A stretch of DNA of 64,000 nt, taken from NCBI GenBank assembly GCA_951812335.1, contig OX638293.1, positions 1,472,731 through 1,536,730 on the forward strand, read 5' to 3'. Every line of letters begins with the position of its first letter. Positions within the stretch are counted from its first letter, which is position 1. The notes beneath the pieces were generated by a model. The model saw only the letters and a program-made list of their open reading frames with translations. It did not search any database and had not been told where the DNA came from. Of this stretch, positions 3,904 to 40,250 are shown one piece after another. Position numbers and translations under genes: made by a program. The DNA comes from Rhodothermales bacterium (GTDB lineage Bacteria > Bacteroidota > Rhodothermia > Rhodothermales > VXPQ01).

Positions 3904-3929
3904 AAGCTCGGCGCCGTGACGGCTGCATG

Positions 3930-3974
3930 GAAGTAGATGCGTTCACGTTCGAGGAATACGCGGCGATGCGGGGG
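3930..3974 (+). repeat. 45-bp direct repeat, right copy
   Basis: Near-identical copy of fadE codons at 2227-2271, here followed by TAG. It starts 27 bp after the stop of the DUF4143 ATPase gene. A copy of a gene's 3' end at the far side of an inserted cassette is the footprint expected of integration at, or duplication of, that 3' end. Confidence 0.85.
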
Positions 3975-4109
3975 TAGGGGGTGGGGGGATAAGCTCTGCA
4001 AGTTCCGGCAATTCATTACGCAATTGCGCCGGCGATGCGTTTTCGATTATTGATTCCCAGAGTTGGTATACGAGAGAGGTGTTGGCGCTGGGGATGTCTC
4101 CGCCGTGTC

Positions 4110-4220
4110 CGCTAAACTGTGTAAGCGGGATTATTGTTCGATGGGGACTCTGTCCCCGTAGAGTATGACGAACTGGTTGAGGGCGGCCTTCCAGTCCCGG
4201 ATCGGCCGCTTCCACTTCTT
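4110..4220 (-). mobile_element. IS256-family transposase C-terminal remnant
   Basis: On the minus strand the last ~29 residues of the reading frame (KWKRPIRDWKAALNQFVILY..., from about 4220 down to the stop at 4131) look like the C-terminus of IS256/Mutator-type transposases, which end in a W-x-x-P-I-R-x-W...LNQ pattern. Just beyond the stop is AACTGTGTAAGCGGG (about 4114-4128), compatible with an IS256-type terminal repeat. Only this end survives; the rest of the element is gone. The family call comes from pattern memory and would need a database check. Confidence 0.5.
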
Positions 4221-4511
4221 CGAGGCTTCCGGATCTTCCCGAAAACGAAAGACCCTACGCCCAGTCCCCGCACCTTTCTTCCTGCCATTACATGCTATCT
4301 TTTTCAAATAATAGAGCGCCTTAAAGAAATTGGATTTACCCGCGCCGTTCGCTCCGTACAGGACACCGCCTCGCAGAACTTTCACATCGCTACCGGGAAT
4401 CGGAGCGAGGTGGTTTTCATGGTGGCCGGAGAACCGGTTGCTCGCTACCATTGAGAAGGTCTCTTCCTCGTTGAAGGAGAGAAAATTTTCAATGGAAAAG
4501 GTTACGATCAT
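4131..4511 (-). pseudogene. N-terminal fragment of AAA_15/AbiL-like ATPase, fused to IS256 tail
   Basis: Residues 1-96 match the start of the OLD/RloA-like 'MIVTFSIENFLSFNEEETFSM' ATPases, with Walker A GANGAGKSN at 53-61 and an 'FRFREDPEAS' stretch near 89. Such proteins are normally about 350-450 residues and often belong to phage-defence loci. Here the frame switches after residue ~97 into a transposase-like tail and stops at 126. The Walker B, signature and C-terminal parts are missing, so ATPase function is unlikely. The DNA further along the minus strand (3978-4108) encodes another unexplained fragment (SLVYQLWESIIENASPAQL) and may be more debris. Confidence 0.7.
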
Positions 4512-4613
4512 GATTTTTAGAGCAATTTTTTCTCGAATGGACCTCCATTATGCATAAAAAACAGAATAAAAATGCAATTTTTCGAGATTCTTTCACAAAA
4601 CACTGTACTGCCA

Positions 4614-7310: not shown

Positions 7311-8345
7311 CTATTTGTCGCGGCGTATCGTATAATCGACCAGACCAAGCATGGCGTTCCGTGCTTCTGTCGGGGGCATATCCTCGAGCAGTTTTCGGGC
7401 CGAATCGGCGTGTTCGTACATTTTCCGGCGAGCATAGGCTATGCCACCCCGGCGTTCGGCATAGGCATATATAGCCTGTCTGTCGCGGCGGTTCTTCCTT
7501 TTTTTACGGACAATGTGCAAAATATCGCGTCGTTCTTTGGGGTGAGCTTCCGCCAGCGCGTGAATAAGCGGGAGCGTCATCTTCTTTTCCTGCAGATCGA
7601 TACCGATGGGCTTGCCGATGTCTTTGGCCCCGTAGTCGAAAAGATCGTCCCGAATCTGGAAAGCCAGCCCAAGGTGTTCGCCGGCTTCCTGCATAGTGTG
7701 TAGTACGCTGCGGTCGGCGTCGGCGCTCAGAGCGCCGCATTCCATACAGGCTGCAATGAGAGAAGCCGTTTTGTCCGAGATAATCCGGAAGTAGGTTTTC
7801 TCGTCGATGTCGAGACGGCGGGTCTTTTCGATCTGAAGCAGCTCTCCCTCGCTCATGCGGCGGACCGCATCGGAGAGTGCATGGAGCAGTTCGTAGTCTC
7901 CGTAACGCAGTGACAGCAGCAGCCCGCGGCTGAGCAGGAAATCGCCGAATAGAACGGCGATTTTGTTTTTCCAGAGCGCATTGACGGAGAAGGCGCCTCG
8001 CCGTCGTTCGGCGGTGTCCACCACATCGTCGTGCACCAGTGTGGCGGTATGCATCAATTCGACAAGCGCCGCCGCCCTGTATGTGGTTTCGCTGATGCCT
8101 CCGCACATTTTCGCCGACAGAAGAACGAGCATGGGGCGAATCTCTTTGCCCTTCTGACGCAGCATGTACCGTGTTACCTTGTCGAGCAGGTTGGCGTCGG
8201 AACGTACGGAGTCCCGAAAGTACCGACGGAAGACGCCGAGTTCCTCATCGACTGCAGCGCGAATGTCCCGTAGCGTGCCGGGAATATCCCCGACGGCCGG
8301 CAGCGTATCGGAGCGTTCGGGCAAGAGAGTATCCGTTTCCGGCAT
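7311..8345 (-). CDS. polyprenyl diphosphate synthase (IspB-like)
   Basis: Chain-elongating trans-prenyltransferase that adds isopentenyl diphosphate to allylic diphosphates to make the menaquinone or undecaprenyl-type side chain. Both aspartate-rich motifs are present: FARM LVHDDVVD (about residues 100-107) and SARM QIRDDLFDY (about 233-241), with 'GKEIRPMLVLLSAK' before the first as in octaprenyl/heptaprenyl synthases. The frame is open for 158 more codons upstream, but that part has no family similarity and is rich in Arg and Cys, so the ATG at 8345 (MPETDTLL) is chosen, giving 344 residues, the usual size. It lies in the same direction as the cytochrome c gene, 55 bp apart. Confidence 0.9.
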   Translation of the reverse strand: MPETDTLLPERSDTLPAVGDIPGTLRDIRAAVDEELGVFRRYFRDSVRSDANLLDKVTRYMLRQKGKEIRPMLVLLSAKMCGGISETTYRAAALVELMHTATLVHDDVVDTAERRRGAFSVNALWKNKIAVLFGDFLLSRGLLLSLRYGDYELLHALSDAVRRMSEGELLQIEKTRRLDIDEKTYFRIISDKTASLIAACMECGALSADADRSVLHTMQEAGEHLGLAFQIRDDLFDYGAKDIGKPIGIDLQEKKMTLPLIHALAEAHPKERRDILHIVRKKRKNRRDRQAIYAYAERRGGIAYARRKMYEHADSARKLLEDMPPTEARNAMLGLVDYTIRRDK

Positions 8346-8544
8346 GCAGCGATGAAATGCGAAGAGTTGCTGTGCGCTTATCCTGGACGAAAGGTAGCGT
8401 ATACGTCGGTTTATTGCAGATGGTTGCCTGCTCTGAAGAAAGGGAAAAAGGTTGTTGCGCGGGCAGATGCGTTGCCGGGTCCGCCGCCGCTTCGCACATC
8501 GTATTCCGGAAGACGCAATATCCCGGCGATACCCATGTCGTGCA

Positions 8545-9081
8545 TTACCGGGTAATGAGGATCGTATCCGGTACAATGAACGCATCGGTAAATCGCCGGG
8601 CAAGCACGCTATGCAACGCCTGGGCTTCTTCGCGCGAAAGAAAATCCCCGACGCGAACACGGTAATACGGTTGGCTGTATACGTTGTAGACAGGGAGTTC
8701 CCCGGGGAAGATTTCCTCGGAAACAGTACCCTCGTCGCGCTGTTTCCGCCACCAGGCCTGTACGCTTTCTTGTGCCTCCGTGGCTGCGTTGCGTTCGATA
8801 GACGAAAATATCTGTACACGGAATCCCGGCACTTTCGATCGGATACCCTCGGCAGCGCGGCCTTCCATTAGATGTGTCGGGACGTCGTGTACGATCGCCG
8901 CCAGCGTGTCGAGGGGCGCGTCGGGATATGCGGCGGGATCGAAGTCCTCGTAGCGAGACATATCGATAACCGGCGTCGGTAGAGCGCCTGCACCAACGGT
9001 GGTGCTTTTCTCGGAAGAAGCGCAGCCCCATAATCCCGTAATCAGCAGCGCTACAGCGCCGCATCGCATTGCATTCATCAC
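8545..9081 (-). CDS. SPOR-domain lipoprotein
   Basis: Predicted outer-membrane or periplasmic lipoprotein. The signal peptide MMNAMRCGAVALLITGLWGCAS ends in a lipobox (LWGC, Cys at ~20). The C-terminal part, from 'GFRVQIFSSIERNAATEAQESVQAW' to 'YYRVRVGDFLSREEAQALHSVL', is a SPOR fold, which binds denuded peptidoglycan glycans at division sites. The length of 178 residues leaves a short linker. It is upstream of the polyprenyl synthase gene in the same direction, with 199 bp between. A role in cell-wall or septum biology is likely from the domain; the specific partner is unknown. Confidence 0.85.
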   Translation of the reverse strand: MMNAMRCGAVALLITGLWGCASSEKSTTVGAGALPTPVIDMSRYEDFDPAAYPDAPLDTLAAIVHDVPTHLMEGRAAEGIRSKVPGFRVQIFSSIERNAATEAQESVQAWWRKQRDEGTVSEEIFPGELPVYNVYSQPYYRVRVGDFLSREEAQALHSVLARRFTDAFIVPDTILITR

Positions 9082-9120
9082 TGTTCTCAGATTCCGATAA
9101 TAGAAATGGTCCGAAAAAAC

Positions 9121-9527
9121 CGGACAGTTTTTCCAGCGTTTTTACGTGTAGCGCTGCGTCGGGTTATGCCGCTCTGGGCAGCGGTTTTCGTTTGTAGAAT
9201 ACGTCGTCGGGCGTTCTATTGTCAAGGCCCTGGTTCGGGCGTTCCTCGTTGAAGTAGCGCAAGTAGTCGGCAATGCGTTTCCTGGCTTTGGCCACCGTCT
9301 TGCAGGCATGCCGGTAGACTTCTTCCTGCTTGATGCTGCGCCAGAGGCGTTCCACGTACATGTTGTCCAGCCAGCGTGCTGTCGCCTCGCACGGCGGCGA
9401 GGGCTACCTTCGCCTCGGACGAAGGACTGCGGGTTCTGCGTGTGCGTCTTGACATGGGTCTCCTCTGGTTGATTGGGTCGGAACAAGGTCGCAACAGTAC
9501 ACCTTAAATTTTGATAAAATCTGTCCA
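9121..9527 (-). mobile_element. internally deleted IS3-family element
   Basis: About 407 bp with imperfect terminal inverted repeats (CGGACAGTTTTT at 9121-9132, and its counterpart GGACAGATTTTA read on the minus strand from 9526). On the minus strand it begins with an OrfA-like start (MSRRTRRTRSPSSEAKVALA, from 9455) and ends with the OrfB C-terminus at 9164-9361 (YVERLWRSIKQEEVY...YFNEERPNQGLDNRTPDDVF), the end of the DDE integrase domain. The central ~800 bp that should lie between are missing. It is therefore a non-autonomous relic that could only be moved in trans. Confidence 0.75.
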
Positions 9528-9628
9528 AAAAGTCAAACCCCGAACCACCTCTGACTGGACGGTATTTCGGTGCCCGATAGCACGGTCATGGCGCGCAACC
9601 GCAGCATTAAGGACACACAACCTGTCAA

Positions 9629-10990
9629 ATGGATATAAGTCTCATAAAAAAACTTCCTCCCGGCCCGAAAGAAGGTTTCGGAATAAAACTGCGCCTGTGG
9701 CGAATCCGCGACGCCGTCGGATTCTTCGAGGCAATGCACGAACAATATGGAGACGCTGTGTATTTCAGGCTCCTGAATCGCAGGTTCTGCGCTGTATACT
9801 CCCCCGAGTTGATCGAACAGGTCCTTGTTACAAAACGAAATTCGTTCCATAAGGGCCCGGCTTTCAAGAAAACCCTGATTGTACATAACCCCACCACGCT
9901 TACGGGAGACGGCGACGCTCACCAGAGGCTGCGCAAATTGGCCCAGCCGTCCTTCAGGAGAAAAGCTCTCGACGAATATGCCAACATGATGATTGAGGAA
10001 ATCGTCAGGATGCAGGCCGGTTGGAAGGAGGGGGACAGCTTTGATATCGTTCCGGTGATACATCAACTGACGCTGGACATTGCGAGCGCGACGTTTTTCG
10101 GGGGGGATATACGAATTTCCGCCTCCCTTATTAAGGATGTTCAGGAAACGTTGAACTGGAGCATGAAGCTGACCATGCTCCCTATGGGCGACCTGATAGC
10201 AAAGCTGCCTTTGCGCAACAATCGTTTTAGAAAGGATACGTGCAAGGCTATGGATCGCCTGATTTTCCAGGTGATCGAAAAGGCCCGCGGCGATGAGGAG
10301 CGCGTTGACCTCATATCTTCCCTGGTTCGCGCTACCGACGAAGACGGAATCGAAGATCCGTTAAGCGATGACGAGGTAAGAGACGAAGCGTATATCCAGA
10401 TTCAGGCCAGCCACGAAACGTCCGCGAATGCCCTCGCATGGTGTTTCTATCATATCGGACTGAATCCGGATATACGCGCTCGCCTGGAACAGGAGGTTGA
10501 CGAAGTATTGCAAGGGCGCCAGCCGTCGGCGAAGGATTACAAGAACCTGCCTTACACGCAAGCCGTATTCAGCGAAGTGATGCGCATTACTCCGCCGGTG
10601 TACGTTGTCGGTAGAGAGGCGATTGAAGATTGTACGATCGGCGATTATTTCATCCCGAAAGGAACGATCGTACAACCCTTCTGGCGGGCGCCTCAGCGAA
10701 GTGAAAAGTATTGGCCCGAGCCCCTGAAATTCAAGCCGGAGCGGTGGCTCGAAAAACAACCCCCGGAGCGGCCCAAACATGCCTACGTTCCTTGGGGCGG
10801 AGGCATCCGAAATTGCCTCGGTACGGGATTCGCCAAGATGGAAGTGATATTAACGCTTGCGTCCATCGGTCAACGTTGGCGGATCGACCCCATTTCCAAA
10901 GAATTCCCTGAAGTAAGAACATTGGGATTCTACCGGTTCAAACATGGCCTTCCGGTGACGCTTACGGAACGGAAATCGTTTTATACCTGA
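9629..10990 (+). CDS. cytochrome P450
   Basis: Haem-thiolate monooxygenase, 453 residues, soluble class with no membrane anchor. Signatures in order: I-helix 'QIQASHETSANALAW' (about 252-266; the usual A-G-x-D/E-T is A-S-H-E-T), K-helix EVMR (E-x-x-R, about 310), the 'PERW' meander (about 371), and the haem loop 'YVPWGGGIRNCLGTGFAKME' with Cys at about 394. Phe of the classic F-x-x-G-x-R-x-C-x-G is Trp here. The family resembles the CYP102/CYP4-like bacterial groups that hydroxylate fatty acids or terpenoids, but the substrate cannot be told. It stands alone beside the IS3 relic, with no ferredoxin gene next to it. Confidence 0.93.
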   Translation: MDISLIKKLPPGPKEGFGIKLRLWRIRDAVGFFEAMHEQYGDAVYFRLLNRRFCAVYSPELIEQVLVTKRNSFHKGPAFKKTLIVHNPTTLTGDGDAHQRLRKLAQPSFRRKALDEYANMMIEEIVRMQAGWKEGDSFDIVPVIHQLTLDIASATFFGGDIRISASLIKDVQETLNWSMKLTMLPMGDLIAKLPLRNNRFRKDTCKAMDRLIFQVIEKARGDEERVDLISSLVRATDEDGIEDPLSDDEVRDEAYIQIQASHETSANALAWCFYHIGLNPDIRARLEQEVDEVLQGRQPSAKDYKNLPYTQAVFSEVMRITPPVYVVGREAIEDCTIGDYFIPKGTIVQPFWRAPQRSEKYWPEPLKFKPERWLEKQPPERPKHAYVPWGGGIRNCLGTGFAKMEVILTLASIGQRWRIDPISKEFPEVRTLGFYRFKHGLPVTLTERKSFYT

Positions 10991-11209
10991 TTTGCCGGAG
11001 GCACACATGTTGTTGTCGAGAGTTTATTCGGCGGTCGATGGGCGCACAGTGTATCGAGTCGGTCTGCGAGCTACCTTTGCGTGAGATCGAGGTTGGTGTA
11101 CTTGTGGCCCGCAATTAGCCGACATGGTACGCTCGAACGGGATGAAAGGTAAATGTCATGCTCTTGCGCCTGACCGGCCTTTATTGTTCCGCTGCCCGGA
11201 TACACGTTC

Positions 11210-11223
11210 GATCAGAGTATCCT
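11210..11223 (+). repeat. dispersed repeat, single end (GATCAGAGTATCCT)
   Basis: One end of a repeat family seen at least six times in this window. On the minus strand it supplies the last codons and stop of the photolyase gene (AGG ATA CTC TGA = R-I-L-stop). Confidence 0.65.
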
Positions 11224-12657
11224 ATAGATGTCCAGCGCCCGCTGACGCGCTTCTGCGTGATCGACGATGGGATAGGGGTAATTTTCGCCGAGTCGAACTC
11301 CGGCTTCGGCCAGGACGGCTTGCGGCGCCTGCCACGGAGCATGGATTGCTTTGTCGGGAAGTCGCCGAAGTTCCGGCGCCCAGGTCCGGAGGTATTGCCC
11401 GGCAGCGTCGAAACGCTGTGACTGCGCCACGGGATTGAAGATGCGGAAGTACGGAGCGGCGTCGACGCCGCAGCCGGCACTCCATTGCCAGCCGGCGCTG
11501 TTGTTGGCCCAATCCGCATCGACCAGGGTATCCCAGAACCAGTCCGCGCCGTGCCGCCAATCGATCAACAAATGCTTCGTCAGAAACGAAGCGGCGATCA
11601 TGCGGACCCGGTTGTGCATCCAGCCGGTCACCCAAAGTTCGCGCATGCCTGCATCGACCAGCGGATATCCCGTCAGACCTTGTTGCCAGCACTGCAAACC
11701 GGTCGGGTCGTTCCGCCAGGGCATGCGGTCGAATTCCGGCCGCATGTTGACCCTTCCCATGTCCGGGTTGTGAAACAGCAAATGATGACTGAATTCCCGC
11801 CAGCCGATCTCGCGCAGAAAGGCGTCTTTGTCCGGCCCCGGTTCGATTTCACCGAGCGCGGCAACGATCTGGCGCGGTCCCGTCTCACCGAAATGAAGAT
11901 GGGGCGACAGTCTGCTGGTGCCCCGTTTTCCCGGCTCGTCGCGGCCCGCTCCATATTTGCCGATCCCGTCACGCAGAAAATCGTCGAGCCGTTGCAGGGC
12001 GCCTTCTTCTCCGGGCCGCCACACTTTCCGAAACCCTGCTGCCCAGTCCGGATCATGGCGTCGCAGATTCCATGTTTCGAGCGCTTCGGTCAATGGCCAT
12101 GACGAGGGCGGAACCGGCGCCGGCCTTTCGTTTTCCGGATACTCAAACCCATGTTCGAGGCATCGACGCCAGAACGGCGTGAATACCCGGTAGGGCGAAC
12201 CGCTGCCTGTCCGGATAGTCCAGGGTTCGAAGAGCAGCGCGGCATTGAAAGATCGCGGCGCCGCGCCTGCTGTCTTGCACTGCGCCTCGATTTCCGTGTC
12301 CTGCCGGATGATTGCCGGATCGTAAAGCCGGTTCCATACGATCGCCGATGCGCGGGTTTCGCGGGCCAGTGCGGCAATTGTTGGCCCGGCAGGCCCCCGG
12401 CGAAGAATGAGACGACTGCCCAACTTCTCCAGAGAAGCGTTCAGGGCATGGAGGCTGCCATGTAGCCACCAACGGGATGCGCCCCCGGCAGGACGGCTAC
12501 CGGTATCTTCGTCCAGGATGAAAACCGGGATGACCGGTCGCCCGGTTCGGCTCGCCCATGACAACGCGGAATTGTCCGTCAACCGCAGATCGCGGCGAAA
12601 CCACATGAGGATTGGCCGGTTGCCGTCTTTGTCGGGATGTTGTTTGCTTGCAGGCAT
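11212..12657 (-). CDS. phrB: deoxyribodipyrimidine photolyase
   Basis: Light-driven repair of cyclobutane pyrimidine dimers. The N-terminal alpha/beta antenna domain starts 'PILMWFRRDLRLTDNSAL' (residues 15-32). The C-terminal FAD domain contains 'TSRLSPHLHFGETGPRQIV', 'REIGWREFSHHLLFHNP', 'MRELWVTGWMHNRVRM' and 'DADWANNSAGWQWSAGCGVDAAPYFRIFNP', the class I photolyase core. Length 481 is normal. The DADWANN/AGWQW region favours repair photolyase over cryptochrome. The last three residues and the stop are encoded by a dispersed repeat, so the natural C-terminus may have been changed slightly. It is transcribed toward the P450 gene. Confidence 0.95.
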   Translation of the reverse strand: MPASKQHPDKDGNRPILMWFRRDLRLTDNSALSWASRTGRPVIPVFILDEDTGSRPAGGASRWWLHGSLHALNASLEKLGSRLILRRGPAGPTIAALARETRASAIVWNRLYDPAIIRQDTEIEAQCKTAGAAPRSFNAALLFEPWTIRTGSGSPYRVFTPFWRRCLEHGFEYPENERPAPVPPSSWPLTEALETWNLRRHDPDWAAGFRKVWRPGEEGALQRLDDFLRDGIGKYGAGRDEPGKRGTSRLSPHLHFGETGPRQIVAALGEIEPGPDKDAFLREIGWREFSHHLLFHNPDMGRVNMRPEFDRMPWRNDPTGLQCWQQGLTGYPLVDAGMRELWVTGWMHNRVRMIAASFLTKHLLIDWRHGADWFWDTLVDADWANNSAGWQWSAGCGVDAAPYFRIFNPVAQSQRFDAAGQYLRTWAPELRRLPDKAIHAPWQAPQAVLAEAGVRLGENYPYPIVDHAEARQRALDIYRIL

Positions 12658-18842: not shown

Positions 18843-19688
18843 ATGAGATCAAGGGACATGCCTGCGAAGGAAGCGGAAGCATCGGCGACGGGTCGCCTTG
18901 CCGCCATTTACATTTACCCGGTCAAATCGACGCGGCGGGTAGCGCTGGAAGCGTCGGCGGTCGAGCCGCAGGGTCTCCGTATGGACCGCCGGTGGATGGT
19001 GGCCGATCCGGACGGCAAATTCATGTCGCAGCGTACCGCGCCCAGGCTGGCGCTGGTCCGGGCGGCGGTGTCCCCGGAGGGACTGCGGGTGCAGGCGCCG
19101 GGGCAGGAGGATCTGGTTGTGGCGCAGCCGAACGGGGCGGCGCGTGCATCCGTGGAAGTATGGGGAGACAGTATTCCCGCCGCCGAGGCGGATGGCAGGG
19201 CGCACGAATGGTTCAGTCGGTTTCTCGGCACCGAATGCCGGCTTGTTTACCTGGACGATCCGGCCAGCCGACCGATCGAGACCGGGTACGGCAAGCCCGG
19301 GGACGTCGTGAGTTTTGCGGATTCTTTTCCGGCGCTGCTTATTTCCGAAGCCTCTCTGGAGGCGCTCAATGCGCGGCTGGACGAGCCGGTCCCCATGCAT
19401 CGTTTCCGGCCGAATCTGGTCGTGTCGGGGGTCGAGGCGTTTGCCGAGGATACCTGGGATCGCGTGCGCATCGGGGAGATGGATTTTCTTGTGGCCAAGG
19501 CATGCGCCCGCTGCATCGTGACAACGGTCGATCAGGAGACAGGCGTACAGGGCAAGGAACCGCTGCGGACCCTGGAGACGTTTCGCCGCGGCGAGGACGG
19601 GAAAGTGTACTTTGGCCAGAATCTCATTCCGCTACGCCCCGGAACCGTCCGCCGGGGCGATATCGTACAGCCGACGTTGCGCCGGTAA
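18843..19688 (+). CDS. MOSC domain protein (YcbX-like)
   Basis: Molybdenum-cofactor sulfurase C-terminal-type protein, 281 residues: N-terminal MOSC beta barrel ('LAAIYIYPVKSTRRVALEASAVEPQGLRMDRRWMV', about 20-55) and MOSC domain with 'HRFRPNLVVSGVEAFAEDTWDRVRIG' (about 182-207) and the conserved Cys in 'KACARCIVTTVDQETG' (about 220-235), which carries the activated sulfur or binds the cofactor. YcbX and mARC relatives reduce N-hydroxylated bases with a Moco. The stop codon is immediately followed by one arm of the inverted dispersed repeat, and the other arm ends 12 bp before the ATG. Confidence 0.9.
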   Translation: MRSRDMPAKEAEASATGRLAAIYIYPVKSTRRVALEASAVEPQGLRMDRRWMVADPDGKFMSQRTAPRLALVRAAVSPEGLRVQAPGQEDLVVAQPNGAARASVEVWGDSIPAAEADGRAHEWFSRFLGTECRLVYLDDPASRPIETGYGKPGDVVSFADSFPALLISEASLEALNARLDEPVPMHRFRPNLVVSGVEAFAEDTWDRVRIGEMDFLVAKACARCIVTTVDQETGVQGKEPLRTLETFRRGEDGKVYFGQNLIPLRPGTVRRGDIVQPTLRR

Positions 19689-19738
19689 AGGATACTCCGA
19701 TCAAAACCGCTTCGCTCAGCGCGTCACGTTCGTGCGTA
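19689..19738 (-). repeat. 50-bp dispersed repeat downstream of MOSC gene
   Basis: Begins AGGATACTCCGATCAAAACC right after the MOSC stop codon and ends CACGTTCGTGCGTA. It is the inverted partner of 18781-18830. A transcript running through both would form a very long stem. Confidence 0.75.
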
Positions 19739-20058
19739 AAGGTTATCATAATTGCATCGTTGAAATTAGCGAAAAACGTTTCGGATTCGGGACATCGCGG
19801 ACGTGACGCGCCCTTCGGGAGGCTGCGAGGAGCACGCTGGCTGTGTCATTCCTCATTATGTGGGGCCTGCCACATTGCTTCGTCATTCCTTGCCAGCGTA
19901 CCCCTCTCAGCTTCTGAGCTTCGCGAACTTAATCAGAGTATCCTTTACCGGCGCCGGACCGATAAAAGAGAGCATTTCGCCCTGAATCCGATCCTTTTCG
20001 CGCCGTACCTTACAGCTTCGCATCGCCATTCTCTCACTGATTCATCTACCAGTCCGCC
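19739..20058. other. 320-bp intergenic region with a further repeat copy
   Basis: No convincing gene is seen. It contains a copy of the dispersed repeat at 19916-19944 (GAGCTTCGCGAACTTAATCA then GAGTATCCT), which matches the copy at 47635-47665 in inverted orientation. Confidence 0.6.
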
Positions 20059-31495: not shown

Positions 31496-33895
31496 TCAAA
31501 CTGCGCATGCCTGAATGGGCCGGGTTAGTGTGTCTCCTTTGTCTTTCATGGCGCGCGCGGCTTCGACGATTGCGGGCCAGTGGGTAAGCAATTGTCCGTA
31601 GGCAAGTACTTGCCGTCGGAACGTAGCAAGGCGTTCTTCGGGGGTTCCCGGCAGGTCGATCGGAACGGAGAAATCGGGGTTTGCCGCCGATTCCCGGGCC
31701 GAGGTTAGGTAGCGCATCACGTCGTTTCGCCAGCAATCCGGCCTGTCGGGTTCGTTGCCGAGGCGGTGCTCTGCGCGGAGTACGTCGATGTGCATTGCCT
31801 GAAGGGCCAGTTTGCGCAGATAGTCCGAGAAGGCTTTTTCTGGAAGGCGGGCAAGCCGTACAAGCATGCCTCCGACCGTATGCAGCGCCTCGGCGCCCTC
31901 GCCGATCGGGTTCTGGTCCTGTGTCAGGGTGATATATATGAGCAGATCGTTGGCCCGCAGCGGGCGAAAGGCGATATCGTTTTTCGGATAGCTCCGCTTT
32001 TTGGGCGGCAGATGCCGCACGGCATACCGCGGGAGATATCCTCTGAAGGCGTTTGGGAGGCAGAGTCGGATCATGGTACCGAAGAGACCATCCTGGTTAC
32101 GCCCTTCGGGCATGAAGGGGGGGAGCAGCCGGCGGTTATCCAACCCCATGTTCATCCCCATGCAGAAAACGCCGTCGCTGATGGCAAGACGCGCGGATGT
32201 GCGTAGCATATGGCGCGAACGAAGAAGGTGAGGATAGCGATCCGGATCGCTCACAAGGCGATCCAGTATTTCGCCTCTCATAAACAATCGCTGCTGAAAA
32301 AACTCCATGCCGGTATCGCCGACGACCCCCGGAAAGGAAAGCACAACCTGCGCGTCGGGCATATCCAGCCGCTTCAGAAAGCCCCCCGAGACTTTCTCGA
32401 CGTCTACATCGCCGCCGTTTTGCGCAAACTGCGCAATGATCGGAGCCACTGGCCTCCCAAGAATCTGCTCGTGAACGCTCAACAGATCGACTTCCGCCGG
32501 CTTGACCGATCGGAGCGCCTCTTCAATATTCTCGAAGAACCGATATTCGTTCGATTCGGCGTCCGAGTTCAGAGAAAGACCGTCTTCGTATCGAGCGATT
32601 TCCATGGCGTCCCCCGTGGTGTCGTCATCGGCCTGCACGTGGATTTCTCCAGTCGTTGCCAACAGGAGCGCATTACGTGCCGCGCCGGCTGTTGGCCCCT
32701 TGTCGCCCGGCCCGAGAAGGGCAAAACGCACGACTTCTTCCGGGACGCTTGCATACGCAGCCAGTCTCGAACCGTATTCGGCAAGGCGCGTACGGTCCGC
32801 GTAGAGGATATTGGCGGCGCTCTGTCGATGCACATCTTTCAGGACATCCACGTTGCGGCGACGGGTTGCTTCTTCTTTCGAGTCGTCCATGACCATGCAT
32901 GCAATGTCCCGGCCCGTACGCCGTGCCTGATCGACATAACTCGCGACCGCGCGTTGCAGGCACTGGGGGCGGTTTGCCGTAGGGAGGCCGATCGAGGTAA
33001 TGGAGGTTTTCTCAGGCTCCTCATGGGCCAAGTCGCCGATTCGACGGTCGATATCCGTACGGATATATTCCTCGGAAACGAAGAAACCTCCCTGCACGAG
33101 TTCATTCAGCATATTTGTCCAGACCGTCCGGTCAATGCGTTCCATCGGTACGCCTGCCGTTGCACGGTCGAATCGCTCCATCAGCGAGGAGACATGGCCG
33201 GAAAGGTCGTTGAATGTCTCAAGAGAAAAGATCAGATTTGCAGGAAGGACAGGAAGTATTCGGGCAGCGCCGTTTCGCCTGGACCATACCAGAATTTCCT
33301 GGGAACTGAACGGCATGGCTTCTATGTCGAATGGCCTGAAGCGCCGGGAAGCGTTGCGTTTGGAAACGCCGTCCGTATATCCGACTTCGGTAGACGAGAG
33401 ACCGTTAGCGCTGTCTTCCGGGAGATCCAGTGACGCAGATGCAATCTGCGCCAGGCATTCGGGAAAGTCTTCCTTGGGCGTCAGGGTCAGCAGCGCCCGG
33501 GATGACCAGATACGTTCCATCTTGGCGGGCGAGCATTCCATGGCTCCCGCTGCGGGATCGCCTATGACGAAGCGGCCTTCCTCGAAACCGTAGCACACGA
33601 TGTATTCCGCCCTTTCGTCGCGCAGGACATGCAGGATGCAGGGAGCCTCCATCTGCTTCAGGTTGGGCAGGTCGGCTTCGTAGGCGCTTGCTGTGAAACC
33701 CATTGTCCCGGCTGCCCGATACAGGTCGAGCAGCGTAACTCCGTACTGCGTGGTCCTGGTCAGTCTGATCAAACGATCCATGACCATCTCGCCGCCGTGA
33801 TAGCGGATGATGGATGCGAGGCAGGCGGCGCCCGACTCGGTGGGCGTGCGCTGAAGGACGACAGTGGTCTTTGCCTGTTCCTTGATGGAAGCCAT
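31496..33895 (-). CDS. C39-like pseudoprotease fused to GT-A glycosyltransferase
   Basis: Large fusion (799 residues from ATG 33895; a GTG at 33919 is possible). Residues ~10-140 match peptidase C39 and resemble the C39 domain of the transporter at 37141-39405 ('ACLASIIRYHGG', 'GVTLLDLYRAAG', 'FVIGDPA'). The nucleophile is lost (DCG is ESG, Ser21) and the His position holds Glu97, while Gln15 and Asp113 remain, so it should bind but not cut a GG leader. Residues ~186-290 form an unassigned helical part, perhaps winged-helix/PqqD-like. From ~297 a family-2-like glycosyltransferase follows: 'SIGLPTANRPQCLQRAV', MDDS at 336-339, Q-A-DDD-T at 421-426, and 'GLDNRRLLPPFMPEGRNQDG'. The inferred job is glycosylation of the divergently encoded peptide. 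Confidence 0.75.
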   Translation of the reverse strand: MASIKEQAKTTVVLQRTPTESGAACLASIIRYHGGEMVMDRLIRLTRTTQYGVTLLDLYRAAGTMGFTASAYEADLPNLKQMEAPCILHVLRDERAEYIVCYGFEEGRFVIGDPAAGAMECSPAKMERIWSSRALLTLTPKEDFPECLAQIASASLDLPEDSANGLSSTEVGYTDGVSKRNASRRFRPFDIEAMPFSSQEILVWSRRNGAARILPVLPANLIFSLETFNDLSGHVSSLMERFDRATAGVPMERIDRTVWTNMLNELVQGGFFVSEEYIRTDIDRRIGDLAHEEPEKTSITSIGLPTANRPQCLQRAVASYVDQARRTGRDIACMVMDDSKEEATRRRNVDVLKDVHRQSAANILYADRTRLAEYGSRLAAYASVPEEVVRFALLGPGDKGPTAGAARNALLLATTGEIHVQADDDTTGDAMEIARYEDGLSLNSDAESNEYRFFENIEEALRSVKPAEVDLLSVHEQILGRPVAPIIAQFAQNGGDVDVEKVSGGFLKRLDMPDAQVVLSFPGVVGDTGMEFFQQRLFMRGEILDRLVSDPDRYPHLLRSRHMLRTSARLAISDGVFCMGMNMGLDNRRLLPPFMPEGRNQDGLFGTMIRLCLPNAFRGYLPRYAVRHLPPKKRSYPKNDIAFRPLRANDLLIYITLTQDQNPIGEGAEALHTVGGMLVRLARLPEKAFSDYLRKLALQAMHIDVLRAEHRLGNEPDRPDCWRNDVMRYLTSARESAANPDFSVPIDLPGTPEERLATFRRQVLAYGQLLTHWPAIVEAARAMKDKGDTLTRPIQACAV

Positions 33896-34032
33896 GGTTG
33901 TGGGGAGATTCAATTGCACCGTAGCGGTCGATCTGCCGGATCAGATCGGCTTCTAGCGTGTCGGTTCCGGAATTGTCCGGTCAAGACGCATTATTGGGAG
34001 AATATGCAATGCGCGGGGGTTGGGAGGATTGT

Positions 34033-34038
34033 TATAAT
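34033..34038 (+). promoter_or_regulatory. possible -10 box (TATAAT) for the peptide gene
   Basis: A TATAAT lies in GGATTGTTATAATAGACC, about 64 bp before the peptide ATG. No convincing -35 element is found at 17 bp, and Bacteroidota promoters often differ from this consensus, so this is tentative. Confidence 0.3.
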
Positions 34039-34101
34039 AGACCTCCAGAGGCGTTGAATCGCGTTCAGCGCATACCCGTTATCAAACGAAGGAGGTGTAT
34101 T

Positions 34102-34329
34102 ATGCAAGCGTTGACAATAGAGCGGATGGAAGCGATATATGGAGGAGGGTGGCAAGATCAATTACAGGCGGGACTGAGTGCGGTCTCTATGTTTTGCCAG
34201 ATAGCTATAACGGCTGGCTGGGCTACTATAAATCTTATGATGACATTGCCCGCGTGGAATGGTGTTGTGGGTGGTTTTTTGCTGGGATGTCTTGCGGCGA
34301 TAGGGCTTGATATCGTAATCAATTCTTGA
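34102..34329 (+). CDS. double-glycine leader precursor peptide (bacteriocin/RiPP)
   Basis: 75-residue peptide with a very strong ribosome site (GAAGGAGGTG, 6 bp before ATG). The leader MQALTIERMEAIYGG ends in a GG motif with the usual hydrophobic/acidic spacing (L4, I6, M9, I12), the substrate signature of C39 peptidases. The predicted mature part of 60 residues (G16-S75) is hydrophobic and Gly-rich, with two long hydrophobic stretches (SAVSMFCQIAITAGWATINLM and GVVGGFLLGCLAAIGL...), two Cys (32 and 63) that could form one disulfide, and several Ser/Thr as glycosylation candidates. It is flanked by the glycosyltransferase fusion gene (divergent) and followed by a strong terminator. Confidence 0.85.
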   Translation: MQALTIERMEAIYGGGWQDQLQAGLSAVSMFCQIAITAGWATINLMMTLPAWNGVVGGFLLGCLAAIGLDIVINS

Positions 34330-34350: not shown

Positions 34351-34406
34351 AAAAAAACAAGGGGGTTACGTTGGACAATTTCTAAATGTAACTCCCTTGT
34401 TTTTTT
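34351..34406 (+). terminator. strong intrinsic terminator after the precursor gene
   Basis: AAAAAAACAAGGGGGTTAC (34351-34369) pairs with GTAACTCCCTTGTTTTTTT (34388-34406), a stem of about 17 bp with one mismatch ending in a U-run. It lies 21 bp after the peptide stop. Such a terminator would let the small peptide gene be expressed much more strongly than the downstream transport genes. Confidence 0.88.
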
Positions 34407-34648
34407 AAATATGCACATTCAGATATGAATTTTTAAAGAACAAATTTATTTTTTTGAAATATATGGAATGGATAGGTAAAATATTTTGGAAATGGGAATT
34501 TGAATCATTTTCGTTTATTGAACAAAGAAAATATCATTAAGTACTATTTATTAAATACTTAGATCGTTACGCTATGTTAATTCATTACAGACGCTGAAAG
34601 AACTGGAACGATTCTTTACCCGGTCGGTGGCTGTCGGGGAATCTGGCT
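34407..34648. other. AT-rich gene-free stretch before the IS element
   Basis: Very low GC compared with the window. No start-to-stop gene is convincing. Just before the insertion, a frame without a start codon (VNSLQTLKELERFFTRSVAVGESG) runs into the element; if the element is removed the frame continues FILP and stops at a TGA overlapping the ATG of the membrane protein gene (CCATGA). This suggests a decayed upstream ORF formerly coupled to that gene. Confidence 0.45.
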
Positions 34649-34737
34649 GGGACTTATCAAGAATGCTTGACAGAATCGGTTTAAGCTCTTATTTTACAAA
34701 TAGTTATATAAAAGATCATCGAACAGGCTACGAGACT

Positions 34738-35676
34738 ATGTACAAGGCTCCGGGGAGATCGCAAAGAACGGGTATTACGCTGTTTCAGCTGTTGGGGATG
34801 TTCCCCGATGAGGAAGCGGCGGAGCGCTGGTTCGAAGCCCAGCGTTGGCCCACGGGCGAACGCGCTTGTCCGAAGTGCGGATGCATGAGAACCTCTCGTG
34901 TCGAGAGCCGCAAGCCGATGCCCTTCTGGTGCAGGGATTGCCGCTCGTACTTCTCTTTGAAAACTGGCACCGTCATGGCGGATTCGAACCTGTCGTTGCG
35001 TACCTGGGCGCTCGGTATATACCTTATGGCAACGAACTTGAAGGGCGTATCGAGTATGAAGCTGCATCGGGATTTGGGCGTGTCGCAACCGACCGCATGG
35101 TTCATGGCGCAACGCCTGCGCGAAGGCTTGCCGTTCGCAACCGAGAAGATGGAAGGGATCGTCGAAGTAGACGAGACCTACGTAGGTGGCAAGGAATCGA
35201 ACAAACATTTCCGCAAGAAACTCCATGTCGTGGGCGGAACCCAGGGCAAGGCAACGGTTATGGGGGCGAAAGAGCGCGGCGGCAAGGTCTTTGCTCGTCC
35301 TTTAGGCTGGGAGCCGGGCGAAACGCTTGCCGGATTCGTCCACGAGACCGTGGAGGCAGGCGAAACGGTCTACACGGACGATCATGGGGCCTACCGTAGC
35401 TTGAAAAACACGTACCGTCACGCAAGCGTGAAGCACTCCGTATCGGAGTACGTGAACGGACAGGCTCACACGAATGGTATCGAATCCTTTTGGGCGCTCC
35501 TGAAACGCGGCTACCACGGCACGTTCCACAAGATGAGCCGCAAACATCTGCATCGCTACGTTACCGAGTTTGCCGCGCGCCACAACTTGCGTAGCCTCGA
35601 CACGCTGGAACAGATGCAGGTCATGGCCCGGAGTATGGAAGGGCGTCGTATCAAGTACCGCGAGTTGATTGTATGA
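34738..35676 (+). CDS. IS1595-family transposase (ISXO2-like DDE domain)
   Basis: 312 residues from ATG 34738; the longer frame from 34627 starts outside the element. N-terminal zinc ribbon: 'RACPKCGCMRTSRVESRKPMPFWCRDC' (C-x2-C...C-x2-C, about residues 42-69). Helix-turn-helix-like part 'SMKLHRDLGVSQPTAWFMAQRLR'. The ISXO2-like DDE/N domain starts with 'GIVEVDETYVGGK' (first Asp), then 'TVYTDDHGAYRSL' (second) and 'HTNGIESFWALLKRGYHGT' (N and E). It should be active, since ends and reading frame are intact. Confidence 0.95.
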   Translation: MYKAPGRSQRTGITLFQLLGMFPDEEAAERWFEAQRWPTGERACPKCGCMRTSRVESRKPMPFWCRDCRSYFSLKTGTVMADSNLSLRTWALGIYLMATNLKGVSSMKLHRDLGVSQPTAWFMAQRLREGLPFATEKMEGIVEVDETYVGGKESNKHFRKKLHVVGGTQGKATVMGAKERGGKVFARPLGWEPGETLAGFVHETVEAGETVYTDDHGAYRSLKNTYRHASVKHSVSEYVNGQAHTNGIESFWALLKRGYHGTFHKMSRKHLHRYVTEFAARHNLRSLDTLEQMQVMARSMEGRRIKYRELIV

Positions 35677-35704
35677 CAGCAAGGGACAAAGGCTTGCAAG
35701 CCCC

Positions 35705-35875
35705 ATGATTTTCAAGCGCAGCAACCGTAAACCTCGAGAGGATCGCCCGAAGGACGGCGAGGCCGTCGTAACGATGGCCGATATGGAGAACATTGCCCGT
35801 TCAATCTTCGATCAGGCCGATCGCAAGGCGGGCATCAAGACCGACCGATCCAGGGCGGCTGTCAAGCATTCTTGA
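35705..35875 (+). CDS. small passenger protein of the IS1595 element
   Basis: 56 residues, MIFKRSNRKPREDRPKDGEA..., highly charged, ending in the right inverted repeat of the element (stop at 35873-35875). It follows the transposase by 28 bp in the same direction and lies wholly inside the IS, so it moves with it. Some IS1595 subgroups carry short accessory ORFs in this place; a function is not known. It is not part of the peptide cluster. Confidence 0.55.
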   Translation: MIFKRSNRKPREDRPKDGEAVVTMADMENIARSIFDQADRKAGIKTDRSRAAVKHS

Positions 35876-35901
35876 TAAGTCCCATCTGGCTTCATACTCC
35901 C

Positions 35902-36592: not shown

Positions 36593-37144
36593 ATGAAGCG
36601 CTATTTGACTATCGTCGCACTGGTCGTCATGCTGGTTTTCGTTGTTCTGCTGGGTGCGCGTATCCGCGAGGGGGTGAAGGCCCGCCGCGCCATCGTTGCC
36701 CGGGTTGCAACGCTTCCGAAATTCGAGTTGGCGACGCTGGAGGATCAGCGTTTCGGAAGTGAGAACCTTCCGACGGACCAGCCTGTTATCCTCGTGTACT
36801 TCACAACGGTTTGTCCCTATTGTCAATCGGAGTTGAGCAGTATCCGGCAGCACGGCGAGCTCAAAAAGAAGGGATCGTTTCTGATGATTTCGCGCGAATC
36901 TCTCGATGTGCTACGGCAATATCAGGAGACCGAAGAGCTGGATAAGGAGCAATCCATGCCCATTTTATGGGACAGTCTTGGCGCGGTTCACAGGCAATTC
37001 GGCGTTTCGATCGTGCCCAGCACCTTCATCTACGGAACCGACCGCAGGCTTGTGAAGAAGTTCACCGGAGAAACAAGCGCAGACGTTATCTATCGCGTGC
37101 TCATGGAGGCTGTTGCTGACCAGACCTCCGCAGAAGTTGAATGA
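36593..37144 (+). CDS. membrane-anchored thioredoxin-like protein
   Basis: 183 residues. An N-terminal anchor (YLTIVALVVMLVFVVLLGA, residues 4-22) puts a TlpA/redoxin-like domain in the periplasm: 'PVILVYFTTVCPYCQSELSSI' with C-P-Y-C at 74-77 and a cis-Pro loop 'GVSIVPSTFIYGTD'. It could oxidise or isomerise the Cys32-Cys63 pair of the exported peptide, as BdbA/BdbB-type oxidoreductases do in sublancin-like systems, or keep the transporter protease cysteine reduced. Its stop overlaps the ATG of the transporter gene (ATGA at 37141-37144), so translation is coupled. Confidence 0.85.
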   Translation: MKRYLTIVALVVMLVFVVLLGARIREGVKARRAIVARVATLPKFELATLEDQRFGSENLPTDQPVILVYFTTVCPYCQSELSSIRQHGELKKKGSFLMISRESLDVLRQYQETEELDKEQSMPILWDSLGAVHRQFGVSIVPSTFIYGTDRRLVKKFTGETSADVIYRVLMEAVADQTSAEVE

Positions 37145-39405
37145 TATTCCCTGGGCAGTGCAGCATTGAAGTGAAGAAATTTATTAAGCATATAATACCC
37201 AAAGCGTTTCGTACGGTGGAAAAAACCGCTGCGAAGACGCTTGTTCGGCAGCAGGATCAATCGGATTGCGGCGTTGCTTGTCTGGCGTCGATTATCCGTT
37301 ATTACGGCGGGCAGGCGAATCTGGAGCGCTTGCGCGAATTAAGCGGCACAAGCCGCCAGGGCACGACCCTGCTTGGGCTATATCAAGCCGCGCAGCAGTT
37401 CCATCTGCAAGCCGGAGCGTACGAAGGCGACATCGAACATTTGAAAGAGCTCGCCTCCCCCGCCATTCTCCATGTCGTGAAGGATGAGCATCTTCTGCAT
37501 TACATGGTTTGCTACGCCTACGACAACGGTCGCTTCGTAATCGGCGATCCGGCTTCCGAAGTAAGTAGCTATACCCCTGAAGAAGTGGACGAGATATGGC
37601 AGTCGAAGTCGCTTCTGTTGCTTGAGGTCGACGAAGGCTTCGCGTACAAGAAGCAAGTCCGGAAGGATCAGTGGCGATGGATCAGGCGACTCGTGGAAAA
37701 CGATCTGCATATACTTGCTCTCGCTCTCGTTCTGGGTGTTTTTATAGCGCTTCTTGGCCTTTCGACGGCTCTTTTTTCCCAGATGCTTATCGACCGTATA
37801 CTTCCGGAGAAAAGAATTGCGGAACTTGCAGTCGGGCTCGTTCTACTGGCGGTATTGTTATGGTCCCGAAGCGTTCTGTCGTATGTGCGGGGACGATTTC
37901 TGCTTACCCAGAGCCGCGATTTCAACAATCGGGTTATCGGACGCTTTTTCGGTTCTCTGGTGCATTTGCCCCAGCCGTTCTTTTACACCCGTAAAACGGG
38001 GGACCTCATCGCTCGCATGAACGACACGCATCGCCTGCAGGGGGCCGTTACCCATATTTTGGGCAACGTGATGATCGACGCTCTGGTTCTTATCGTGTCG
38101 GCCGTTTTCGTGTTCATCTACTCCGTACCGCTTGGCTTGCTTTGCGTGCTCAGCTTACCGCTGATAGGGATTCTTGCCTGGATCTATCACCGCCCCATCG
38201 TGAAGGGACAGCAAGGAGTTATGGCAGCCCATGCAATGAACGAAAGCAACTATGTCGACGCCATCCAGGGCATGGAAACGATCAAGACCGGGAACAAGGA
38301 GAATGCCTTTGCCAATCTGACGAAGACGATCTACGGATTCTTTCAGGATCGGATATTCGGGCTGGGCCGGATCGGCATTCGTTTCAACATCTGGGCGGGA
38401 TTCATTTCCGTGGCGTTGTCCGTGGCCGTGCTTGGTTATAGCGCTATGCTGGTGCTGGACGATCGTTTACAGATCGGACAGCTTGTGGCCGTATTGCAGA
38501 TGTCCGGGATGCTTATCCCGGCTGCGATGAGTCTGGCCCTCACGAATCTCCGATTACAGGAAGCCCGGGTCGCTTTCGAGCGAATGTACGAGTTCGCTTC
38601 TCTTAAACCGGAATACGAGCAGGAGCCGGACAGTTCGGGAGCCGTGATCGAAGCCTTCGAGAATCTGGAGGTCCGCGGCGTGTCTTTCCGTTTCGCGGGC
38701 CGCTCGGAACTGCTCAGGGACATATCCTTTCGCGTGAAGCGCGGCGAAATGATTGCGATCCTCGGAGAAAGCGGGTGCGGCAAAACCACGATGCTGCATA
38801 TCCTGCAGCGCTTTCACCAGCCCGGCCAGGGGGATATCGTTGTCAACGACGCGGCGGCGGCGTGGGACGAAATCTCGACGAATGCCTGGCGCAGCCTGCT
38901 CGGCGTCGTTCCCCAACAGGTCAAGATGTTCAATGGTTCGCTGATCGAGAATATCTGTCTGGGCAATATCGTCGAGGAGGCGGAAGCGGTGATCGATTTT
39001 TGCAAACGGCGCGGGTTCGATCGGTTTTTTTCTGCGTTTCCGCAGGGATACATAACGCTTCTTGGCGAAGAAGGGATCAACATTTCAGGCGGACAACGGC
39101 AACTGGTTGCATTGGCCCGGGCGATGTATCAACAGCCTCAACTGCTTTTGCTCGACGAGGCCACGGCGGCCATGGATCGAGAGACCGAACGCCTTATTCT
39201 GACTATGCTCCGGGATATGCGAAAGGAAATCGGCGTCGTGCTGGTGACCCATCGCGCTCAGGTTGCCCGGTACGCCGATCGTATCTACATTCTTGAAAAT
39301 GGCCGGGTAACGTCAGCCGGCAAGCCTGAGGAGTTGGCTGTGGGCGACAACCTTTTTGCACGGTCGCTTATGGACTTCACCCTTATGTCGCATAATGCCG
39401 GGTAG
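37141..39405 (+). CDS. peptidase-containing ABC transporter (C39, SunT/LahT type)
   Basis: Exports and matures GG-leader peptides. 754 residues in three parts. C39 peptidase domain (about 30-165) with complete triad: Gln37 (oxyanion), Cys43 in SDCGVACLAS, His120 in LLHYMVCY, Asp136 in IGDPA. A six-helix transmembrane domain (about 180-470) begins 'HILALALVLGVFIALLGLST'. The nucleotide-binding domain has Walker A GESGCGKT (~542-549), signature ISGGQRQ (~650) and Walker B LLLLDEAT (~668). The intact protease contrasts with the dead C39 domain in the glycosyltransferase fusion. It ends the co-directional operon and is convergent with the AraC-like gene. Confidence 0.95.
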   Translation: MIFPGQCSIEVKKFIKHIIPKAFRTVEKTAAKTLVRQQDQSDCGVACLASIIRYYGGQANLERLRELSGTSRQGTTLLGLYQAAQQFHLQAGAYEGDIEHLKELASPAILHVVKDEHLLHYMVCYAYDNGRFVIGDPASEVSSYTPEEVDEIWQSKSLLLLEVDEGFAYKKQVRKDQWRWIRRLVENDLHILALALVLGVFIALLGLSTALFSQMLIDRILPEKRIAELAVGLVLLAVLLWSRSVLSYVRGRFLLTQSRDFNNRVIGRFFGSLVHLPQPFFYTRKTGDLIARMNDTHRLQGAVTHILGNVMIDALVLIVSAVFVFIYSVPLGLLCVLSLPLIGILAWIYHRPIVKGQQGVMAAHAMNESNYVDAIQGMETIKTGNKENAFANLTKTIYGFFQDRIFGLGRIGIRFNIWAGFISVALSVAVLGYSAMLVLDDRLQIGQLVAVLQMSGMLIPAAMSLALTNLRLQEARVAFERMYEFASLKPEYEQEPDSSGAVIEAFENLEVRGVSFRFAGRSELLRDISFRVKRGEMIAILGESGCGKTTMLHILQRFHQPGQGDIVVNDAAAAWDEISTNAWRSLLGVVPQQVKMFNGSLIENICLGNIVEEAEAVIDFCKRRGFDRFFSAFPQGYITLLGEEGINISGGQRQLVALARAMYQQPQLLLLDEATAAMDRETERLILTMLRDMRKEIGVVLVTHRAQVARYADRIYILENGRVTSAGKPEELAVGDNLFARSLMDFTLMSHNAG

Positions 39406-39485
39406 GATATGTCTATGCCGATGGCATGTAGGGTTTCGTGTCGTGGATGATTGGCCTGGAATGGTACACGACGATCCTGGCGCTG

Positions 39486-39984
39486 TCAACCCGCCTTCCC
39501 GTTCGTCTTCACCGCTTCCGCCGGTTTGCAACCGAGATGCTTACGACACGCCCGCCAGAAAGTCGAGTACGAATTGAATCCGAGCGCGTACGCCAGTTCC
39601 GTCAAATTGCAGGCGCCGTGTTCAAGTATGCGCCGGGCTACCTGGATGCGCGCCCATGTTATGTATTCTCCGGGCGTTCTTCGTACATCGCCGTTCGGCG
39701 TAACTTCGCCTGCGAATCGGTCGTGGAAGCAATGAGTCTTAATGCTGCATTTTTTGATTACATCCTTTACGGACAAGGAAGACAAAAGAAGGTTCTCATG
39801 AATATACCCGAGCGCCACTACAATGTCGTTCTTTTCCGCATGCGAGGCATCTGTTTCGAGGAAGTTTTTTCGAGCTTCTTCTACGATGCCATTGTCAAGT
39901 ATTTTATTATTAAATTTGTGTGAATTCGGGGGGGGGGGGGTAAATAAGACGGTTTAAACATTTCGACTGCATATCGTTGTACAT
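39486..39984 (-). pseudogene. AraC-type DNA-binding protein, frame broken at a 13-bp homopolymer
   Basis: The C-terminal frame (39486-39818 and upstream without stop to 39927) encodes an AraC helix-turn-helix domain: 'VVALGYIHENLLLSSLSVKDVIKKC', 'TPGEYITWARIQVARRILEHGACNLTELAYALGFNSYSTFWRACRKHLGCKPAEAV'. No start codon is available in that frame except a poor GTG at 39818. An ATG at 39984 (MYNDMQSKCLNRL) reads toward it, but the run of 13 C on the minus strand shifts it out of frame to an early stop; with 12 C the two frames join. Either a phase-variable regulator in its off state, a sequencing error, or a decayed gene. It is convergent with the transporter gene. Confidence 0.6.
39928..39940 (+). 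repeat. 13-bp poly-G tract
   Basis: GAATTC is followed by exactly 13 G and then TAAATAAG. It is the longest homopolymer noticed in the window, inside the 5' part of the AraC-like gene (poly-C in its sense strand), and sits in AT-rich DNA. Confidence 0.9.
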
Positions 39985-40250
39985 CCGGTTTTTTGCGTGT
40001 TTTCCGCACACGATATTAAAGAATATTTCGAAACAAATTCTCAATCATTACATTTTTAGGAGTATTTGAAAACTTTACTTCAAGTTTAATAATTACCCGG
40101 CACTTGGGGCCTCCGGCTGTGTGATCGGGCGGCTTGTTTCCGGGTCTCTTTTTGCTCGGCTGGAACGCCTCCGGGACGTATCCTGTCAAGCTTCATCGCG
40201 TTTGAGTATCCATTCGTCATGCGCATCGTATCGCTATGACGGACACAAAT

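Follow-up and report, generated by a model that had tools for sequence, protein, structure and literature searches.

A double-glycine peptide gene beside a predicted glycosyltransferase that carries an inactive C39 domain in a Rhodothermales bacterium

Introduction

What does a 75-residue open reading frame in the genome of a marine Rhodothermales bacterium encode, and is its product only cut and exported or also modified? The gene, P0001 (34102–34329, plus strand), lies in a window of 64,000 nucleotides, the whole stretch of DNA analysed here (assembly GCA_951812335.1, contig OX638293.1, positions 1,472,731 to 1,536,730), which belongs to a single-contig genome of 2.69 Mb. A sequence-only reading had taken the peptide for the probable single product of its cluster, a bacteriocin-like core with one disulfide that is exported by a C39 peptidase-ABC exporter (PCAT). 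The locus also includes a divergent gene, unnoticed in that reading, for a large protein, P0002, that joins an inactive C39-like domain to a predicted glycosyltransferase. On balance we favour, with modest confidence, the view that P0001 is a bacteriocin-like precursor served by an export set of the bacteroidetocin type, to which P0002 has been added as a glycosyltransferase that would hold the leader and modify the core.

Results

The open reading frame of P0001 is found where it had been placed, and its signals are as they had been described. The near-perfect Shine-Dalgarno sequence, AAGGAGGTG (34089–34097, plus strand), ends 4 nt before the ATG, and a terminator-like hairpin, for which no strand is given, follows the gene at 34351–34406 (arms 34351–34372 and 34385–34406); with a folding z-score of −7.0 and none of 200 shuffles equally stable, it bears out the strong terminator claimed earlier. 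The hairpin goes unlisted in a simple consensus scan because the loop limit of that scan is 8. No promoter-like site was found upstream of the gene by a simple consensus scan, and Rfam gave a tRNA as the sole match in the whole window and no match in 39300–40200. A longer frame in the same phase (33958–34329) was rejected as the real gene, since its added N-terminus precedes the Shine-Dalgarno sequence. The precursor consists of a 15-residue leader (34102–34146, plus strand), MQALTIERMEAIYGG, and a 60-residue core (34147–34326, plus strand) that runs from GWQDQ to VINS, with the putative cleavage point after G15. Hydrophobic and rich in glycine as reported (GRAVY +1.02, 13% Gly), the core has a net charge of −2, ends in GLDIVINS and holds two cysteines, Cys32 and Cys63, spaced 31 residues apart.

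The proposed double-glycine leader was also recovered, with L4, M9, I12 and G14-G15. If it is cut after G15, the hydrophobic residues I12, M9 and L4 fall at −4, −7 and −12, the leader positions described as docking in the groove of LahT (PMC6363468). The leader consensus given for PCAT1 is L(−12), E(−8), L(−7) and GG (PMC6959990); the Glu of the P0001 leader stands at −9, one place off E(−8). Among the 1910 ORFs of the window (all starts, 30–150 aa), P0001 is the best match to a profile made from the leaders of 13 congeneric peptides, from which it was left out, at a modest E value of 0.028. Full-length peptide profiles built without P0001 match it at E 0.15–0.17, and a match at E 1.5e-20 is circular because the source alignment contains P0001. 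A search for homologous small ORFs, advised with the sequence-only reading, gave no homologue of the whole peptide by tblastn of the genome contigs and, the peptide itself apart, nothing below E 0.035 in 60 related genomes; Pfam and NCBIfam contain no family for it. Because the core has no detectable homologue and its kinship to the peptides of sister clusters is not demonstrable by these profiles, the tie between P0001 and those clusters rests on position and leader. Taken together with its gene surroundings, the predicted leader is convincing.

The export genes lie downstream on the plus strand. They encode a multi-pass membrane protein without a Pfam family (TM, P0004; 35902–36585), which is conserved beside the other two; a thioredoxin/ResA-like protein with a CPYC motif (TRX; 36593–37144, in a frame that opens at 36560); and the PCAT itself (P0003; 37141–39405), in which the C39 triad Cys43/His120/Asp136 is intact. 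A simple hydropathy count gives four membrane segments for P0004, five for three of its four relatives (L107, L059 and L110) and two for the other (L052). This trio is the accessory set of the bacteroidetocins, for which PMC6671954 reports weaker toxin activity when the gene for the TM protein, the thiol oxidoreductase or the peptide is deleted, and the four genes as sufficient. The intact exporter triad and the accessory set are consistent with the earlier view of P0001 as a bacteriocin-like peptide that would be exported by the PCAT.

P0002 (807 aa; 31496–33919, minus strand) is divergent from P0001 and starts 182 bp upstream of it, at a GTG at 33919 (alternative ATG at 33895). Pfam, alignments, AF2 models and Foldseek divide it into a dead C39-like domain, an RRE-like domain and a GT-A glycosyltransferase domain. 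The first of these (residues ~15–150; 33470–33877, minus strand) matches Pfam Peptidase_C39 over residues 18–149 at 1.6e-24. Asp121 of the triad is kept, the Cys is replaced by Ser29 and the His by Glu105; an active protease was rejected because two of the three triad residues are gone. The same loss is seen in all four glycosyltransferase-fused rows of alignment A4 (29 rows in total), in which Ser or Gly replaces the Cys and Glu or Arg replaces the His, and each of its 12 PCAT rows keeps both Cys and His. The C39 part of P0002 is 44% identical to the C39 domain of P0003, the PCAT of its own cluster. An AF2 model of residues 1–300, built from 29 rows with PCAT included, has a mean pLDDT of 87.8; in an earlier model the C39 part stayed below 50, probably owing to a shallow alignment. 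The modelled C39 part superposes on the ComA peptidase (Z 21.6, rmsd 1.2, 132 aa), on leader-bound LahT (Z 21.1, rmsd 2.0, 138 aa) and on the HlyB CLD (3zua; Z 13.8, rmsd 2.5, 124 aa). With its modelled C39 fold and no catalytic Cys, the N-terminus of P0002 counts as a C39-like domain (CLD). The open-access literature searched, mostly titles and the beginnings of abstracts, which also took in glycosylated bacteriocins of Gram-negative bacteria and the organism group, yielded no description of such a domain joined to a glycosyltransferase or other RiPP enzyme.

The RRE-like domain (residues ~194–294; 33038–33340, minus strand) was assigned from AF2 and Foldseek. With the whole of P0002, the top Foldseek match is TigE (E 9.4e-5), which we take to be an RRE-containing protein; with the 300-residue model, the matches to TigE (E 0.025) and to TbiB1 with leader (E 0.032) are weak. 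In the AF2 model, strands at 194–223 and helices at 224–294 follow one another as three strands and then three helices, the strand-strand-strand, helix-helix-helix order by which RREs are defined (PMC12710340). Pfam gave no PqqD match on P0002 at E up to 10, and PF05402 reportedly misses many RREs, as described in the RRE-Finder literature (PMC7470986, PMC12710340). The remainder of the protein (residues ~303–789; 31553–33013, minus strand) was assigned by fold match and alignment, its AF2 model superposing on MtdL with Z 19.4 (rmsd 3.7, 312 aa) and on mannosyl-3-phosphoglycerate synthase and other transferases with Z 15.2 or less. Residues DDD 431–433 are invariant in 10 of 10 rows, and Pfam Glycos_transf_2 matches residues 309–354 below threshold (18.8 bits against a cut-off of 23.3). 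On the model, this C-terminal part has a GT-A fold with an acidic metal-binding motif.

Matches to P0002 occur in 16 of the 114 genomes of the order (E 1e-5) and in 19 of the 394 genomes of the phylum (E 1e-20); the named relatives are metagenome-assembled genomes of Rhodothermales, for which a sponge habitat is a guess. Scanning the genome contigs with the glycosyltransferase alignment gave 27 loci, in cyanobacteria, Ktedonobacter, Latescibacterota, Planctomycetota, gammaproteobacteria and others. Among the loci examined, C39 and glycosyltransferase domains share one ORF only in this genus, from which the congeners G001–G005 were compared. The fusion is complete in the window and in L053 (G001), L052 (G002) and L054 (G004), and truncated in the second cluster of the same genome (L047); L051 (G005), which ends at a contig edge, was left out. 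The three sister clusters share one order, in which one double-glycine peptide and the fusion gene are followed by two more peptides, TM, TRX and PCAT. The second cluster (L047 8533–9934, at ~1.297 Mb) has two double-glycine peptides, a glycosyltransferase cut to a 301-aa frame and then TM-TRX-PCAT, and is without the 74-aa peptide type of the sister species. A scan of the window for double-glycine peptides returned one convincing match, so that the earlier statement that no paralogue lies nearby holds for the window and fails for the genome, whose second cluster supplies two more such peptides. That P0001 is the probable single product is doubtful, since the sister clusters encode three peptides each and the genome has a second set.

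The wider family of glycosyltransferases is varied. Beside the C39-less enzymes of L046, L049, L050 and L055–L057 no convincing double-glycine peptide was found; a 51-aa ORF that is not of the double-glycine type is conserved at L046 (8939–9094) and L050 (3492–3647), overlapping the start of the C39-less enzyme, and is possibly a precursor or small partner. In Ktedonobacter (L077), a glycosyltransferase (7980–9803) accompanies a PCAT (3480–5777) and two double-glycine peptides (at 10715–11807) whose cores are extremely Gly-rich repeats. The glycosyltransferase of L057 (8826–12533) is the C-terminal part of a very long protein with, by eye, FkbH-type and carrier-protein parts, and in Oscillatoria-type cyanobacteria (L072, L074 and L076) ~830–960 residues precede it. 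An AraC-type HTH protein (39486–39953, minus strand; a stop-to-stop frame) is a candidate regulator in the window; relatives near other glycosyltransferase genes, glycosyltransferase remnants or PCATs of the genus (L046 11165–11677, L048 2836–3447, L061 1–335), with 72–91% DNA identity among the matches, make a shared regulator possible. Interspersed repeats of ~250–275 bp, 78–88% identical, lie at 9102–9376 and 19685–19945 of the window and recur at several other loci of the genus.

Trees of both domains bear on the origin of the fusion. In the glycosyltransferase tree the window enzyme groups with the C39-less L049, L046 and L050 (support 100/99), away from L052–L054, and a single clade of fused enzymes, a group picked after domain inspection, is rejected (p-AU 0.002). 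Because the fused enzymes do not form one clade and L046, L049 and L050 are C39-less, the C39 domain would have been gained twice, or gained and lost and so dispensable. The C39 tree does not discriminate between one origin and several, but all four fused domains fall inside its PCAT-domain group of the genus and the wider phylum (93/98).

These comparisons bear on a plainer account, unlikely though by no means far-fetched, in which P0001 is bacteroidetocin-like, exported, disulfide-bonded and unglycosylated, and P0002 finds its substrate elsewhere, in another peptide or an envelope glycan. TM, TRX and PCAT matches occur together in 10 of the 13 loci L107–L119 (L112 has a glycosyltransferase only; L116 and L119 are without TM and TRX matches), candidate double-glycine peptides are present in several of them, and across the class and phylum many TM-TRX-PCAT loci have such peptides with no glycosyltransferase match alongside. 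The P0001 core is, moreover, unlike the peptides that adjoin the fusion in other species, and members of the glycosyltransferase family without a C39 domain occur in many phyla. Against this stand the divergent position of P0002 only 182 bp from the peptide gene, the identity that its C39 domain shares with that of the cluster's own PCAT, and the location of its relatives within peptide gene clusters.

The locus has been damaged, and this is the main doubt on its present function. All that is left of an ABC-transporter ATPase gene is a remnant of 48 bp from its 3' end (34587–34634, plus strand; 91.7% identical to L058 1441–1488). An IS1595-family element (34639–35893, plus strand) with 35-bp terminal inverted repeats and a transposase frame at 34627–35676 follows directly, and the two split the peptide gene from the export genes. 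In G002 the counterpart of this ATPase gene immediately precedes the TM gene. Next to a glycosyltransferase remnant in G003, an ABC ATPase and two DUF5687 membrane proteins (L058 613–3776) are candidates for an immunity or export partner that the window locus has lost. Glycosyltransferase remnants are found elsewhere at G000:C1:226810, G003:C34 and G005:C36; three P0002-like remnants (L048 8736–9062, L058 227–595 and L061 849–1187) keep mainly the last 80–105 residues and suggest fast gain and loss of such genes. It is conceivable, if distinctly improbable in our judgement, that the locus is decaying and that production or export of the peptide ceased after the IS1595 insertion and the loss of the ABC gene. 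The position of the element, the ATPase remnant, the truncated glycosyltransferase of the second cluster and the three remnants elsewhere point that way; against it, the frames of the peptide, P0002, TM, TRX and PCAT are intact, the peptide gene still has a ribosome-binding site and a terminator to itself, and at G000:C1:323024 there is still an ABC homologue whose frame is open (80% over 60 aa). The cluster may work, since all its frames are open.

The peptides of the genus share their last residue. All 14 from its clusters, P0001 included, end in Ser (nine in A2, among them P0001, and five in A3, making only about four families), as does one of 12 candidates drawn by one rule from L107–L119, of which one, in L113, is probably spurious; a looser candidate list has three that end in Ser. 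Those loci were taken as fusion-free, and L112, with a glycosyltransferase and no PCAT, yielded no candidate. Set as four of four families against one of 12, the difference has a chance of ~0.003 by hand if the families are independent, for a pattern that was spotted post hoc. It is no more than a hint that a C-terminal Ser is of importance in clusters that have the fusion. We see very little chance that the product is a conjugate like the class IIb microcins, in which an enterobactin derivative is joined to a C-terminal Ser (PMC10233263), with P0002 making or attaching part of a larger siderophore-like or glycan group that aids uptake by target cells: Gly-rich hydrophobic cores, a GG leader, PCAT export, a sugar transferase and the shared C-terminal Ser speak for it, but P0001 has no Ser/Gly-rich tail and no homology to those microcins, and Pfam found neither siderophore genes nor a membrane-fusion protein among the 19 ORFs besides P0001 in the 25–49 kb part of the window.

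Discussion

In the mechanism that we favour, P0002 would grip the P0001 leader by its inactive C39 domain, its RRE-like domain or both, the C39 domain being one that would derive from the protease lineage of the exporter. P0002 would then attach a sugar to the core, for which the C-terminal Ser or another Ser, Thr or Cys is a possible site, and the leader would be handed to the intact C39 domain of the PCAT, which would cut after Gly15 as the core is exported; the thioredoxin-like protein may aid a disulfide between Cys32 and Cys63. The fit of the leader to the PCAT consensus argues for this scheme, as does an exporter triad that is intact where that of P0002 is lost. The predicted folds of P0002, the sister clusters in which the fusion gene lies among double-glycine peptide genes, the shared C-terminal Ser and the gene set of the bacteroidetocins also speak for it. 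The weak kinship of the core, the post hoc Ser pattern, the weak RRE matches, the damage to the locus and the fused glycosyltransferases that do not form one clade argue against it. Since the P0002 fusion adjoins the gene, the earlier picture of a core with one disulfide is incomplete, and the product is probably modified as well.

On the broader proposition, that a dead C39 domain has been repurposed as the leader reader of a RiPP glycosyltransferase, working in tandem with an RRE-like domain, we are evenly divided; as the fused enzymes do not form one clade, a single genus may have seen such repurposing twice. If true, the RRE would not be the only means of leader recognition in RiPP pathways: a pseudo-protease taken over from the exporter lineage would be another, and through it modification would fall on just those peptides that are to be cut. 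Glycosylated bacteriocins would then extend to Rhodothermales.

Several known systems share parts of this arrangement. With the class IIb microcins as described in PMC10233263, P0001 has in common a GG leader, a PCAT, a Gly-rich core and a C-terminal Ser; its locus belongs to a different phylum, its core lacks the Ser-rich tail, and siderophore genes were not found (25–49 kb). The bacteroidetocins (Coyne et al. 2019, PMC6671954) share with it a multi-TM protein, a thiol oxidoreductase, a PCAT and a GG peptide that has a leader of 15–16 aa and two or more Cys. As given there, the mature bacteroidetocins A and B have ~42 aa and four Cys, whereas the P0001 core has 60 aa and two; the glycosyltransferase fusion adjoining P0001 also sets the locus apart.

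Glycocins (sublancin, glycocin F and thermoglycocin), in the account of PMC12457901, likewise combine a cleavable, mostly GG leader with a glycosyltransferase, a thioredoxin-like protein and a PCAT. Their two nested disulfides require at least four Cys, and the P0001 core has two; the producers described there are Gram-positive. Compared with their glycosyltransferases, P0002 has the extra C39-like and RRE-like domains, and its sugar transfer is putative.

For the C39 part itself, the closest precedent is the HlyB-type CLD described in PMC6363468, with which it shares the C39 fold, the loss of catalytic residues and presumed substrate recruitment. It differs in sitting on a biosynthetic enzyme, not on an ABC transporter, and its sequence is nearer to that of active PCAT domains. 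Fusions of an RRE with a glycosyltransferase (PF00535) are already on the RRE-Finder list, as uncharacterised proteins of putative RiPP clusters (PMC7470986, PMC12710340). P0002 departs from the fusions listed there in the GG-leader peptide that adjoins it and in the dead C39 domain ahead of its RRE-like domain, for which no counterpart turned up in the literature searched.
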